A stretch of DNA of 23,409 nt, taken from the IMG/VR virus record IMGVR_UViG_3300025168_000695, positions 1-23,409 of that record. One strand, 5' to 3'. A program made the translations under genes and the position numbers. This stretch comes from a virus. Positions 2,494 through 7,658 of this stretch are shown piece after piece. Positions within the stretch are counted from its first letter, which is position 1, and every line of letters begins with the position of its first letter. The notes below the pieces were generated by a model. The model saw nothing but the letters and a program-made list of their open reading frames with translations. It was not told the origin of the DNA and ran no database searches.

Positions 2494-2608
2494 ACTAAAA
2501 GCCACAGGTAAGTGGTTTGCTAAACAGCAAAGAGGACGACTATGGCTTAATCATATTTTTCCTGTACTGCTAGTTATTAGCTTGATTTTGTTATTGGTTA
2601 ACATATGA
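2471..2608 (+). CDS. Single-span membrane peptide, 45 aa
   Basis: This gene encodes 45 residues: a basic cytoplasmic-type N-terminus (residues 1-26, many Arg and Lys), then one strongly hydrophobic segment (about 28-45) rich in Leu, Ile and Val that runs to the C-terminus. By the positive-inside rule the N-terminus would stay in the cytoplasm. The ATG lies 20 bases inside the zinc-ribbon gene, and the stop overlaps the primase start at 2605 as ATGA. Small membrane peptides of this kind can be superinfection-exclusion or inner-membrane inhibitors, or holin-like, but it sits in a replication context rather than beside lysis genes. Function is unresolved. Confidence 0.55.
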   Translation: MSNDRERRLKATGKWFAKQQRGRLWLNHIFPVLLVISLILLLVNI

Positions 2609-3384
2609 GAAATAAAGGAGTAAATATAAATGCAATCATTGATTCTATGGCTGTGCCAGAAGGCGTTACTCTTCGTAGTAACTGTCCTGTATGTGGTCAT
2701 AATAACAGCTTTTCTGTCACTGCTAACTCTGGTTATTTTCTGTATCATTGTTTCCATGCTGATTGTTCTGTTAGTGGGAAGATTAAAAAAGGTTTACAGC
2801 TTAATACTGTACAGCATAAGAAAAGTATAAACCTAAGCCTGTATAGAACCTTTTTTGTACCATTGGCTAGGTCACCAGAAGCAATAGACTATATAAGAAA
2901 AAATAACATAGAACACGCCTACTCCCAAAAGTTGGTCAATCTAGAACATGACGTTAGAGAAAACAGGGTAGTATTTTTTGTGTACGACAAGAACATGACA
3001 ATTGTTGATGCTGTGGGTAGGTCGTTAAAAAACAAAAAGCCTAAGTGGAAAAGATATGGTGCATCAAGAGTACCATTCGTGACAAATAATAAAAGCAAGA
3101 CTTGTGTCGTGGTTGAGGATTGTGCATCTGCCTGTGCAGTAACAAAAGCTGGAGTAGTAGGCGTATCACTCATGGGTACTAACTTGATAAAAGAGTATAT
3201 ACCATACCTGACAAAGTTTGACAGAGCTGTCATTGCACTTGACAAAGATGCCAGTTTAAAAACGCTGACAATTGCTAAAGAGTTATACACACATATGACT
3301 GTACATACTCTTATGATAGACACCGATATTAAGACGTGGACTACCGACCAGATACTAGAGAGATTTAGGGAGTATCACGCATGA
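2605..3384 (+). CDS. DNA primase, zinc-binding plus Toprim domain (T7 gp4 N-terminal half-like)
   Basis: This primase makes short RNA primers for lagging-strand synthesis. The 259-residue protein has an N-terminal zinc-binding module with Cys27, Cys30, Cys49 and Cys54 (CPVC...CFHADC), then a Toprim catalytic domain. The Toprim acidic motif is Glu171 in VVVEDCASAC and the Asp-X-Asp motif is Asp213/Asp215 in ALDKDA; these bind the metal ions. The length matches the primase half of T7 gp4, but here the helicase is a separate gene that starts in a four-base ATGA overlap at 3381. Such coupling would keep the two subunits in ratio. The start at 2605 overlaps the upstream membrane-peptide stop. A CTGTACAG palindrome lies at 2807-2814. 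The assignment is strong. Confidence 0.88.
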   Translation: MRNKGVNINAIIDSMAVPEGVTLRSNCPVCGHNNSFSVTANSGYFLYHCFHADCSVSGKIKKGLQLNTVQHKKSINLSLYRTFFVPLARSPEAIDYIRKNNIEHAYSQKLVNLEHDVRENRVVFFVYDKNMTIVDAVGRSLKNKKPKWKRYGASRVPFVTNNKSKTCVVVEDCASACAVTKAGVVGVSLMGTNLIKEYIPYLTKFDRAVIALDKDASLKTLTIAKELYTHMTVHTLMIDTDIKTWTTDQILERFREYHA

Positions 3385-4589
3385 CTATAGAAAAACAGTT
3401 ATTAGCACACTGCTTAAAAAAAGACTTTTATAAACAAGTAACTGATGTTATAGGAAAGGAGATGTTTGCCAATGGAGTGGGTACTATATTCGATACTATT
3501 GCTTTTGCTCATGTAAAATACAATAGTGATTTAACTGTAGAGGAACTTATGCACTTACACAGAGATAAGTTTCCCTCGATGCCAGATAGTTCTCGTGAGT
3601 CTGTAGAGGATGTTATTAAAGACTTGCGAAACTTCTCTGGTAACCCTGACATTACAAAAGACTTAGTGACAAATTTCTGGAGAAGAAATAAGGCACACGA
3701 GATAGGGTCAAAAGCGACTGACATTTGGCTAGGTCACGATGGTGACTATTCTGGGCTACAAAGTTTGGTTGACAATTTAGCTGACAAACAGCCACAGGAT
3801 GACAGTAATTTTATAAAGGTTGATGACAATGTGTCTGACTATTTAGAGGCATGTGAAAAGGGTTTTGATTTTAAGTTTGAGTTAGCACCGTTGAGAGATA
3901 GAATCAGTGGTGTAGGTAGGGGTAACTTAGGTATTATCTTTGCTAGACCAGAGACAGGTAAAACAACTTTCTGTACATACTTAGTGTCTGAGTATATTAA
4001 ACAAGGTTATAAGGTAGCGTACTTTGCTAATGAAGAACCGGGAAGGATGGTAAAAGGTAGGATATTTTGTTCCTATCTAGGCAAGTCAACCAGTGAATTG
4101 AAAGAAGATGTTGACAGATACGATGAGATATACGATAGAGAGATCAAACCTAACCTGTTGCTGTTGGAAGGTAGAGAAATATCCATAGCAGAGATTGACA
4201 AATTTGTAGAACTTAACAAGCCTGACATTGTCTTTGTAGATCAGTTAGATAAGGTTAACATTAGTAGTACATACTCAAGGGTAGATGAGAAACTTCGTGC
4301 TATATACGAAACATCAAGAGCGATAGCAAAGAAACGAGAGTGTATGGTCTGGGCTGTATCGCAAGCAAGTTATGAAGCCCACAATAGACAGGAGATAGAT
4401 TTTGCCATGTTAGAAAACTCCCGTACAGGCAAAGCAGCCGAGGCTGACATTATCATAGGGATTGGTAAGAACTTTGGAGATGAGGAAGATTACATACGAC
4501 ATTTGTGTGTTAGTAAGAATAAACTTACAGGTTGGCATGGCACAGTAACTTGTAGGATAGATATTAAGAAGGCGAGGTATATGCCATGA
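3381..4589 (+). CDS. Replicative DNA helicase, DnaB/T7 gp4 C-terminal type
   Basis: This is a hexameric 5'-3' helicase that unwinds the replication fork using nucleotide hydrolysis. The 402-residue protein has a helical N-terminal region (about 1-150) and a RecA-fold motor. The Walker A motif is at 188-196 (ARPETGKTT, with Lys194), and the following YKVAYFANEEPG stretch carries the catalytic-type Glu pair. Walker B is PDIVFVDQ with Asp287. A polar WAVSQ sensor motif and a C-terminal basic SKNKLTGWHG segment follow. It overlaps the primase upstream and the small gene at 4586 downstream, each by ATGA. Compared with T7, primase and helicase are split into two proteins that presumably interact. 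The first Walker A position is Ala rather than Gly, which is permitted. The assignment is strong. Confidence 0.9.
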   Translation: MTIEKQLLAHCLKKDFYKQVTDVIGKEMFANGVGTIFDTIAFAHVKYNSDLTVEELMHLHRDKFPSMPDSSRESVEDVIKDLRNFSGNPDITKDLVTNFWRRNKAHEIGSKATDIWLGHDGDYSGLQSLVDNLADKQPQDDSNFIKVDDNVSDYLEACEKGFDFKFELAPLRDRISGVGRGNLGIIFARPETGKTTFCTYLVSEYIKQGYKVAYFANEEPGRMVKGRIFCSYLGKSTSELKEDVDRYDEIYDREIKPNLLLLEGREISIAEIDKFVELNKPDIVFVDQLDKVNISSTYSRVDEKLRAIYETSRAIAKKRECMVWAVSQASYEAHNRQEIDFAMLENSRTGKAAEADIIIGIGKNFGDEEDYIRHLCVSKNKLTGWHGTVTCRIDIKKARYMP

Positions 4590-4789
4590 TAAAAAGAATA
4601 CATGTAAACCAACATTTAGTAAGGAAGAAAGCAGAGAAGTGTATCACAGTTAAAACTTATAAAGATAACAGGTACGCTAAGGAAGTAGAAATACTTGGGA
4701 AGAGCAAGGTTATTTACAGACCTGACAAACCACTATCTTGTGGAGCAAAAGTGTGGATAGAAACAGAGGCGGAGGTTATATTAAAATGA
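4586..4789 (+). CDS. Small basic hypothetical protein, 67 aa
   Basis: This 67-residue protein, very rich in Lys and Val, sits between helicase and DNA polymerase and overlaps both by ATGA. The sequence suggests a small all-beta fold: alternating hydrophobic residues around 17-36 (CITVKTYKD, EVEILG) and 40-66, with a Pro-Asp-Lys-Pro turn. A small basic beta-barrel in this position might bind nucleic acid or bridge helicase and polymerase, but no family is recognised and that is inference from place and composition only. Confidence 0.65.
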   Translation: MIKRIHVNQHLVRKKAEKCITVKTYKDNRYAKEVEILGKSKVIYRPDKPLSCGAKVWIETEAEVILK

Positions 4790-6837
4790 TTACAGTATTA
4801 GATATAGAAACTACATATAAAGTAGATAAAGATAATAAGACAGAGGCAGAACCCTATACAGGCAACATGTTAGTGTCTGTAGGTTATGATATGGAAGGTG
4901 ATAAGAACTACTTATGTTTCTACCACCAAGATAGATCTCCTACAGAGGATGCAACTAAGACTCTACAGGATGTTTTAGATAAGACTACGTTATTAATAGG
5001 TCACAATATAAAGTTTGACCTGAAATGGTTGCGTGCTTGTAAGTTTATCTATACAGGTAAGGTGTATGACACGATGATTGCAGAGTATTTATTAAACGGT
5101 GGTAGTAAAATACCCTTATCATTAAAGAAATGCTGTGAGAGGTACGCCTTGTCAAAGAAAAAAACAGATCTGACAGAGAAGTACTTACAGGATAAAATAT
5201 CTTTTGAGAAGATACCTTGGCCTATTGTACAGGAATACGGTGAAGCAGACGTGCAAGTTACCAAAGAATTATATGAAGCACAGATAGATAACATGCCTAG
5301 TAGACTTAAAAATACATTAGAGTTATCACATGAGATGTGTGATCTATTGTGTGACATGGAGAACAATGGTATACAGATCAGCAGAGAGAACCTGTACAGC
5401 ATAAGGGAAGAGTATACAAAAGAGTTGGCTAGTTTAGAATCATTCTTAACTAGAGAAATAAAAAGAGTTATGGGAGATACTGAAATTAATCTAGACAGCA
5501 GTGTTGATAGATCTCGTGTGATATTCTCAAGAGAAGTAATAGATAAAAAAAAGTGGGCTTTGACTTTTAACTTAGGTTATGAGGATCGTGGTAATTCACG
5601 AAGGAAGAAGAGACCTAAACGTATGACAGCAACAGTATTAGGACAGACGTTAGCTAAAATGACTAAGTTGCTGTATAGAACTAAAATGGAGTCTTGCAAT
5701 AAGTGTGGAGGATCAGGACATTACTTCGCACTGAAAAAAGATGGTACTATTGGTAAACAACGTAGGCTGTGCAAAGCCTGTAGAGGTAAAGGTGTTGTAT
5801 ATATCAGACAGAAAGAGATCGCTGGATTTAAAATGAATATTGATACTGTTGAAGATATCACAGTGCATGGTTTTAAGACTGATAAACACACAATTGATAA
5901 ACTGGTTAAATCAGCAAATCCTCAACAAAAAATTTTCGTGGAATCTTACTCTAAGTATAATGCTATCAAAACATACTTGAAAACTTTTATAGATGGTATA
6001 GAGAGAGGATTAGACAGTAAGGACAAGATCCATCCACAATACATGCAATGTGTCACTTCAACGGGTAGATTATCTTCTAGAAATCCTAACTTTCAAAATA
6101 TGCCTAGGAGTGGCACGTTTCCTGTACGTAAGGTAGTCATTAGTAGATGGGAAGGTGGACATATGCTAGAGGGTGATTACTCACAGCTAGAGTTTAGGGT
6201 TGCTGGATTTCTTTCTAAGGATAAGCAAGTGTACGAAGATGTAGGTAATAACATAGATGTACATGCCTACACAGCATCTATCCTAGGAGTGTCTAGACAG
6301 GATGCAAAAGCAGATACATTTAAACCTCTCTACGGAGGGATGATGGGTACTCCTAAACAGGTACAATATTATAAAGCATTTAAAGATAAATACAAAGGCG
6401 TGACCAAGTGGCATGAGGATCTGTGCAACGAAGCTGTAACTGAAAAACAAATAAATTTACCTTCTGGTCGACATTATGCCTTTGAAAATACATATAGATT
6501 GCGATATGGAGGGGTTACAAACGCTACGTCAATAAAAAATTACCCCGTGCAAGGCTTTGCTACAGCGGATTTGCTACCTATTGCATTAATCTATACAAAA
6601 AAACTGTTGACAGATAATAATATGAAGACTATAATTTGTAATACAGTACACGATTCCATCGTACTTGATGTCTATCCCTCCGAAAAGGAGCTAGCGGTAG
6701 ATATATTAAAGACAGCAATGCTATCACTAAAGTCTGAATGTATACGGAGGTATAATATCGAGTATGATATGCCGATTGGAATCGAAATTAAAATAGGAAA
6801 TAACTGGTTAGACATGAAAGGAGTTCTAAACATATGA
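4786..6837 (+). CDS. polA: Family-A DNA polymerase with 3'-5' exonuclease and inserted DnaJ-like zinc finger
   Basis: This is the replicative polymerase, 683 residues from ATG 4786; the frame is open back to 4738, but this ATG makes the ATGA overlap with the preceding gene. The N-terminal DEDD proofreading exonuclease shows Asp6/Glu8 (LDIET), Asp78 (GHNIKFD) and Tyr151/Asp155 (YGEAD). Between exonuclease and polymerase lies a zinc finger of the DnaJ central type, Cys304/307 (CNKCGGSG) and Cys329/332 (CKACRGKG). The polymerase domain has motif A Asp464 (EGDYSQLEFR), an O-helix Arg504/Lys508/Phe512/Tyr516 and motif C Asp623 (VHDS). Phe512 aligns with E. coli Phe762. Motif C has Ser where most family members have Glu. 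Polymerases carrying a DnaJ-like central domain are the published mark of HMO-2011-type marine phages. The assignment is very strong. Confidence 0.95.
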   Translation: MITVLDIETTYKVDKDNKTEAEPYTGNMLVSVGYDMEGDKNYLCFYHQDRSPTEDATKTLQDVLDKTTLLIGHNIKFDLKWLRACKFIYTGKVYDTMIAEYLLNGGSKIPLSLKKCCERYALSKKKTDLTEKYLQDKISFEKIPWPIVQEYGEADVQVTKELYEAQIDNMPSRLKNTLELSHEMCDLLCDMENNGIQISRENLYSIREEYTKELASLESFLTREIKRVMGDTEINLDSSVDRSRVIFSREVIDKKKWALTFNLGYEDRGNSRRKKRPKRMTATVLGQTLAKMTKLLYRTKMESCNKCGGSGHYFALKKDGTIGKQRRLCKACRGKGVVYIRQKEIAGFKMNIDTVEDITVHGFKTDKHTIDKLVKSANPQQKIFVESYSKYNAIKTYLKTFIDGIERGLDSKDKIHPQYMQCVTSTGRLSSRNPNFQNMPRSGTFPVRKVVISRWEGGHMLEGDYSQLEFRVAGFLSKDKQVYEDVGNNIDVHAYTASILGVSRQDAKADTFKPLYGGMMGTPKQVQYYKAFKDKYKGVTKWHEDLCNEAVTEKQINLPSGRHYAFENTYRLRYGGVTNATSIKNYPVQGFATADLLPIALIYTKKLLTDNNMKTIICNTVHDSIVLDVYPSEKELAVDILKTAMLSLKSECIRRYNIEYDMPIGIEIKIGNNWLDMKGVLNI

Positions 6838-7658
6838 CCGAAACATTAATGGAAACAAATCTACCTGATAAGATTTCAACTATGTCTGTAGACGACATGA
6901 TGAAACTTACAGGGCAGTCAGCAGACGCACCAACTACTAGTAAAGGGTTGTCACGTCTGTCAATAAATCACTCAGCCGAAGACGAAGATGGAAACGCTTT
7001 ACCTCGTGGACATTTTAGTCTGTACACTGATGATGGTATAATCTACGCAGAGAAGGCAGTCATCAGACCGTTTATGAGAACGTATTCGTACTCAGTATGG
7101 GATAATGAAGAAGGTGCTTTTTCTGTACAGACAGTACAAGCTCCATCTTTTAATAGTGAGTTCTATGATACAGATGGTGGTTTGAAGTGTGGTAGATTAA
7201 ACGCAAGTGATCTAGAGTCCATGCCTAAAGATAGCCCTGAGTGGGTGCTACAAAAAAGTGTAAAGTGTAGCCAAAACATCTACGGTTTGATAACCTTAGA
7301 AGGTGCTAAAGATAAGAAAGGCAAGGCTGTAGAGGCTAAAGATATTCCTAGCGTGTGGTACGCTAAGGGTGCTAACTTCGTTCCGGCAAGCGATTGCCTA
7401 AAGAGCCTGCATAAGCAAAAGCAACCTATGTGGTTGACGACTATCGGGCTGTCTTCTGTAAGAAAAAAGAAAGGTGGGAACATCTATTTTCAAGCAGAGC
7501 TAACGCCTCGTGGGCAAATCGCTGACTGGACTGGAGAGGATGATACGCTGATGCATCAATTTATGGAAACTGTAAAGGGCTATAACGAGTCTATTATGAA
7601 GAGACATAGTAGTGCTCGTGGAGACAAAGAAGGCTTCGATACAGTTGTAAATGAATAA
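6834..7658 (+). CDS. Putative single-stranded DNA-binding protein, 274 aa
   Basis: The 274-residue protein follows the polymerase by an ATGA overlap and precedes a nuclease, the usual place for the phage single-stranded DNA-binding protein (T7 gp2.5-like role). An acidic, flexible N-terminus (about 1-55) leads into a beta-rich core with aromatic strands (about 60-150, e.g. FSLYTDDG, RTYSYSVW) and a second block (185-240) with WLTTIGLSS and IYFQAELTP. This is compatible with an OB fold, and the tail contains acidic residues. I do not see a signature that proves the family. The alternative is an unrelated replication accessory protein. It would coat exposed strands and help the helicase, polymerase and recombination nucleases. 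The call rests mainly on position, size and predicted beta content. Confidence 0.5.
   Translation: MTETLMETNLPDKISTMSVDDMMKLTGQSADAPTTSKGLSRLSINHSAEDEDGNALPRGHFSLYTDDGIIYAEKAVIRPFMRTYSYSVWDNEEGAFSVQTVQAPSFNSEFYDTDGGLKCGRLNASDLESMPKDSPEWVLQKSVKCSQNIYGLITLEGAKDKKGKAVEAKDIPSVWYAKGANFVPASDCLKSLHKQKQPMWLTTIGLSSVRKKKGGNIYFQAELTPRGQIADWTGEDDTLMHQFMETVKGYNESIMKRHSSARGDKEGFDTVVNE

Follow-up and report, generated by a model that had tools for sequence, protein, structure and literature searches.

The family A DNA polymerase encoded at 4786..6837 of the window (the whole 23,409-nt stretch of viral DNA analysed here) carries a predicted four-cysteine zinc finger of DnaJ type. Structural modelling and alignment place this finger inside the polymerase thumb, within a long basic insert between helices H1 and H2. 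A zinc-stabilised insert of this kind may grip the primer-template while this marine phage of HMO-2011 type replicates its DNA, a proposal that we regard as evenly poised between right and wrong. The finger-bearing architecture as such is already published as the mark of an abundant group of phages, and the window protein adds another HMO-2011-type case to it. What is added here is the placement in the thumb, the invariance of the finger across 274 relatives and its retention by the polymerase in relatives whose exonuclease has a gene of its own. With the finger assigned to a loop that in T7 contacts the template, and tied to the polymerase and not to the exonuclease, an oddity of annotation becomes a testable question.

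The polymerase and its membership of the HMO-2011 group

The features discussed below are the following.

2605..3384, plus strand: DNA primase (Toprim), a separate gene (phrog_47, E=3.5e-25)
3381..4589, plus strand: DnaB-like replicative helicase with a basic, not acidic, C-terminus (PF03796, E=6.6e-13)
4786..6837, plus strand: family A DNA polymerase of HMO-2011 type, fused exonuclease and polymerase, 683 aa (ORF, Pfam, AlphaFold2 mean pLDDT 91.4)
4786..5295, plus strand: 3'-5' exonuclease domain, about residues 1-170, DEDDy residues D6, E8, D78, Y151 and D155 (Pfam PF01612, residue invariance)
5383..5526, plus strand: thumb helices H (200-229) and H1 (239-247), upstream of the finger (AlphaFold2 secondary structure, Klenow alignment)
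5545..5883, plus strand: thumb insert, residues 254-366, about 113 aa, net charge +19 (AlphaFold2 model, alignment)
5695..5793, plus strand: predicted core of the DnaJ-like zinc finger, CxxCxGxG-17-CxxCxGxG, residues 304-336 (motif, Pfam, profile, conservation)
5884..6009, plus strand: thumb helices H2 (367-375) and I (379-408) (AlphaFold2 model)
6175..6657, plus strand: catalytic core of the polymerase, motif A D464, O-helix R504/K508/F512, motif C D623 (invariant in 106 aligned relatives)
6834..7658, plus strand: conserved 274-aa protein of no known family directly downstream of the polymerase (found in 106 loci)

The polymerase ORF starts with an ATG and overlaps the stop codon of a 67-aa ORF that lies behind the helicase gene (window 4586-4789) and is found by similarity only in the closest relatives (L001, L002, L003 and L012). 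Two Pfam families match above their cut-offs, DNA_pol_A_exo1 (PF01612) at residues 46-164 and DNA_pol_A (PF00476) at 358-675, and both the DEDDy residues of the exonuclease and motifs A, B and C of the polymerase are intact. The DEDDy residues are invariant in 99 relatives, 30 of them separate exonuclease genes. At motif C (residues 623-624, window 6652-6657), all 106 aligned HMO-2011-type polymerases read HDS and not HDE, as do VpV262 and StenR_269; R8W, N37, K437b and 1.204.O have HDC.

A partial DnaJ central domain containing two CxxCxGxG motifs is present in the DNA polymerase of every HMO-2011-type phage and serves to define the group (PMC9038755, PMC6918029). The initial annotation assigned the phage to this lineage on the strength of the motifs, and for the polymerase the assignment holds. 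Phage records that match the polymerase over its full length at 35% identity or more are exclusively HMO-2011-type isolates, namely HTVC033P (44%, the best isolate), CRP-1 (39%), CRP-3 (38.5%), HMO-2011 (37%) and CRP-207 (35%). These identities of 35-44% extend over 99-100% coverage and lie within the bounds of at least 25% identity and at least 80% coverage to HMO-2011-type DNAPs; the protein likewise combines a family A polymerase and 3'-5' exonuclease with the partial DnaJ domain and two CxxCxGxG motifs by which the group is recognized (PMC9038755). A polymerase tree built without the insert also puts the window among the finger-bearing rows, the branches of the far outgroup being very long and the root unsure. 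The order primase-helicase-polymerase, the endonuclease I and the ribonucleotide reductase of the window, a genome fragment of 23.4 kb, match HMO-2011, and the polymerases of HMO-2011, CRP-1/-2/-3 and HTVC033P share with it the domain order, the two CxxCxGxG motifs and the upstream helicase. The window lineage nevertheless differs from these isolates, since it has no isolate above 44% identity and branches with contigs in which exonuclease and polymerase are separate genes. Genome contigs were of no use for naming a host, since the matching contigs belong to MAG bins from unrelated taxa.

Conservation and affinities of the four-cysteine motif

The two CxxCxGxG repeats reported in the initial annotation, at Cys304/307 and Cys329/332, lie exactly there in the ORF. 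They read CNKCGGSG (from nt 5695) and CKACRGKG (from nt 5770), which are the sole CxxCxGxG matches in the six frames of the whole window, and a chance origin can be dismissed because shuffling the protein 20,000 times never produced the paired motif. For comparison, 274 distinct related polymerases were gathered from IMG/VR (five scans), from genome contigs (one scan) and from the isolates, and every one of them has the four cysteines, the glycine of CxxCxG in motif 1 and the final glycine of motif 2. The other two glycines are looser, that of CxxCxG in motif 2 being a glycine in 166 of the 274. The spacer between the motifs has the same length in all relatives but CRP-738, in which it is longer. 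The remaining ten cysteines of the polymerase are not invariant. Natural knock-outs, that is relatives without the finger, numbered zero among the 274 distinct sequences, a sample drawn by polymerase similarity that could miss more distant losses. The invariance of the four cysteines lends indirect support to a putative tetrahedral Cys4 metal site.

Around them, the insert is basic. Its net charge has a median of +14 and ranges from +6 to +21 in 106 relatives (+19 in the window, +6 in HMO-2011), compared with -2 for the remainder of the protein, and lysine or arginine is always or almost always found at positions 273, 275, 298, 317 and 324. The invariance of the cysteines combined with this lysine/arginine profile fits a metal-held element that faces nucleic acid. 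Taken over its full length, the insert shares no more than 27-46% identity with the inserts of other subgroups.

As to the affinities of the module, the signature of the DnaJ central domain read into the two repeats stands in part. DnaJ_CXXCXGXG (PF00684) matches residues 299-339 of the polymerase (E=1.1e-4, 22.8 bits) and every one of the 59 sequences in the insert alignment (lowest E-value 1.7e-7), while the curated gathering cut-off of 32.7 bits is not reached, the scores being 22.8 and 24.6 bits. The motif pair corresponds to the interior of the Pfam model, at positions 13-54 of 65. When the profile of the insert was compared with solved structures, the nearest were antitermination protein Q (E=0.011) and E. 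coli DnaJ (1exk, E=0.021). The profile match to the zinc finger of lambdoid Q covers the finger, phrog_6060 being a further match, but the context of Q is a different one, transcription. A Foldseek search with the isolated insert gave no match below E=0.001, BSD2 and DnaJA2 coming first and the fingers of anti-TRAP and UvrA also ranking high. What does not carry over is the full domain: the cysteine-rich domain of DnaJ has four CxxCxGxG motifs and two zinc sites, whereas the window polymerase has two motifs and one predicted site, embedded in a polymerase thumb. On sequence grounds, the finger would therefore be a DnaJ-type pair of zinc knuckles, half of the DnaJ cysteine-rich domain. Pfam and the sequence itself revealed no J domain or HPD in the polymerase, which together with the missing half of the zinc domain makes a chaperone role unlikely.

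Predicted position in the polymerase thumb

An AlphaFold2 model built with a 59-sequence alignment is confident (mean pLDDT 91.4, pTM 0.84), and its helices were named H, H1, H2 and I through alignment to Klenow and T7. By alignment, the H1-H2 loop measures 113 aa in the window against 16 in E. coli Klenow, 16 in VpV262 and 23 in StenR_269. Model and alignment agree in placing the finger inside the polymerase thumb, within this insert. The initial annotation had located it between the exonuclease and polymerase domains, which is correct as a description of the gap between the two Pfam matches but not of the predicted structure, since H and H1 precede the finger. A role as an inter-domain linker is ruled out by the model and by the relatives with separate genes.

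T7 gp5, another family A replicase from a phage, also has a large and basic insertion at the tip of its thumb, the thioredoxin-binding domain. There the inserted segment separates H from H1 (helix numbers as in PMC9198812) and binds thioredoxin, whereas in the window it separates H1 from H2 and carries a four-cysteine site. The question raised in the initial annotation, whether the finger sits where T7 polymerase binds thioredoxin, is thus answered in the negative: in the model and alignment, the two insertions are in adjacent loops at the tip of the thumb, not in a shared one. In T7, it is the H1-6c-6d-H2 stretch that crosslinks to template DNA (PMC9198812), and in plant organellar polymerases lysine-rich thumb insertions have been modelled as DNA clamps (PMC7699545). 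Four podovirus polymerases (L038, L039, L040 and L041) have an extension of 115-134 residues at the H1-H2 loop that contains no CxxC pairs and whose flanks resemble those of the finger insert, with FGGxV at the start and GY...YST at the end.

Possible roles of the insert

Of the functions that the initial annotation offered for the finger, namely binding of a partner such as the primase-helicase, a role in processivity and contact with the template, position in the thumb and basic charge favour contact with the template or duplex. In the mechanism that we propose, the polymerase would replicate the genome of a marine phage of HMO-2011 type, and its basic H1-H2 insert of about 113 residues would be held by a single four-cysteine metal site acting as a structural finger, not as a chaperone. 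The insert would lengthen the tip of the thumb, its basic residues would hold the duplex of primer and template behind the active site, and processivity might thereby be raised without a thioredoxin-like partner. Metal binding, DNA contact and the effect on processivity are thus all putative. In favour of such a grip are the place in the thumb, the charge of the insert, the fixed cysteines and spacer within an otherwise divergent insert, and the retention of the finger by polymerases that have parted from their exonuclease. Against it are the charge of the HMO-2011 insert, a mere +6, and the failure of the isolated insert to find a significant Foldseek match. The literature searched contained no biochemistry of an HMO-2011-type polymerase, and one study of viral PolA omits the group.

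The basic charge could equally suit the binding of an acidic protein tail. The basic loops of the thioredoxin-binding domain of T7 bind the acidic tails of gp2.5 and gp4, and the T7 insertion serves both DNA grip and partner docking, so that by analogy the two roles need not be mutually exclusive. A docking platform for the acidic C-terminal tails of replisome partners is possible, if somewhat doubtful. The candidate partner is the downstream protein, possibly an SSB, which adjoins the polymerase in 106 loci and has 13 invariant columns across them. Its last 20 residues have a median charge of -3, reaching -11, against a median of 0 for internal 20-mers, and its tails often end in DLAADF-like motifs. 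In the window, however, this tail is weakly acidic (-1 over 30 residues) and the helicase tail is basic (+6), and identification of the downstream protein as a gp2.5-like SSB was abandoned because no SSB or OB-fold match is detectable. A pure scaffold, in which the metal site merely stabilises a fast-evolving insert that is dispensable or occludes the site of a thioredoxin-type factor, seems unlikely. It would account for the wide variation of the insert beyond its cysteines and glycines, and for the extensions of 115-134 residues, free of CxxC pairs, that the distant podovirus polymerases of R8W, N37, K437b and 1.204.O carry at the H1-H2 loop, but not for the lysines and arginines kept nearly throughout at 273, 275, 298, 317 and other positions, nor for a finger lost in none of the 274 relatives.

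The two remaining explanations are very improbable. Lambda replication requires DnaJ, and a DnaJ-like domain might by similar means recruit the host DnaK. The likeness to PF00684 is in keeping with such a mimic of a chaperone, and lambda is mentioned in connection with the group (PMC9038755), but a module embedded in the thumb, with neither J domain nor HPD and with half of the zinc domain absent, is hardly suited to it. It is just as hard to credit that the two CxxC pairs are a thiol sensor through which a redox switch controls the polymerase. A glutaredoxin gene has been reported in HMO-2011-type phages (PMC9038755), but it is a zinc knuckle that has this arrangement of glycines with a spacer of fixed length, and the four cysteines always occur together.

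Relatives with separate exonuclease and polymerase genes

About 35 marine viral contigs from IMG/VR encode an exonuclease of about 180-210 aa and a polymerase of 510-530 aa in two distinct ORFs. These relatives thus provide a family A replicase that is naturally divided between two genes.

Loci with separate genes: L018-L022, L051, L056, L064, L068, L073-L075, L078, L083, L085, L092-L094, L097, L099
Loci with separate genes (continued): L101, L103, L105-L107, L109, L113, L114, L116, L118-L123

The two ORFs mostly overlap in different frames; at some loci they lie 177-1237 nt apart, with unrelated ORFs in most of these gaps. Programmed frameshifting is impossible across such gaps and conceivable for the overlapping pairs. 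Catalytic residues are retained in both ORFs, and the finger invariably belongs to the polymerase ORF, where it begins to appear after some 130-155 residues. The best matches in phage collections included no isolate of this type, and no description of the arrangement was found in the literature searched. The nearest parallel is provided by MEP401-type OM43 phages, whose polymerase occupies two ORFs, with the break falling within the polymerase domain at a small ORF; these phages are reported to lack the HMO-2011-type domain structure (PMC10580990). Two polymerase ORFs are thus common to both, but the cut falls elsewhere, since here the exonuclease parts from the polymerase. A published DNAP screen asked for more than 540 aa and at least 80% coverage (PMC9038755); screens requiring one long gene with all domains would tend to omit the split relatives.

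In the insert-free polymerase tree, the window and four other fused relatives (L004, L011, L044 and L045) fall within the split-gene clade (100/100), and the same five rows adjoin four split rows (99/97). This nesting, seen in sequence trees, suggests either a re-fusion or two separate splits. The tree favours two changes; forcing a single split clade costs 16.7 likelihood units, with an AU p of 0.165, so that one origin is not rejected. The exonuclease-domain tree does not resolve re-fusion from repeated splitting. All but one of the five fused rows have a methionine (M170 in the window) that aligns near the start methionine of the split polymerases, which is suggestive only. One could imagine that a widespread marine phage lineage divided its family A replicase into an exonuclease and a finger-bearing polymerase, that the window gene was later re-fused and that the finger-bearing thumb is a built-in clamp replacing a thioredoxin-type factor, a scenario that we put forward tentatively and think rather less than probable. 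Some of the gaps contain ORFs of their own. One of about 147 aa lies between the exonuclease and polymerase genes in L018 (1626-2066) and L022 (2153-2596) and has by eye the look of a PD-(D/E)XK-type nuclease, and small HTH-like ORFs are found between the split genes in L097, L121 and L123.
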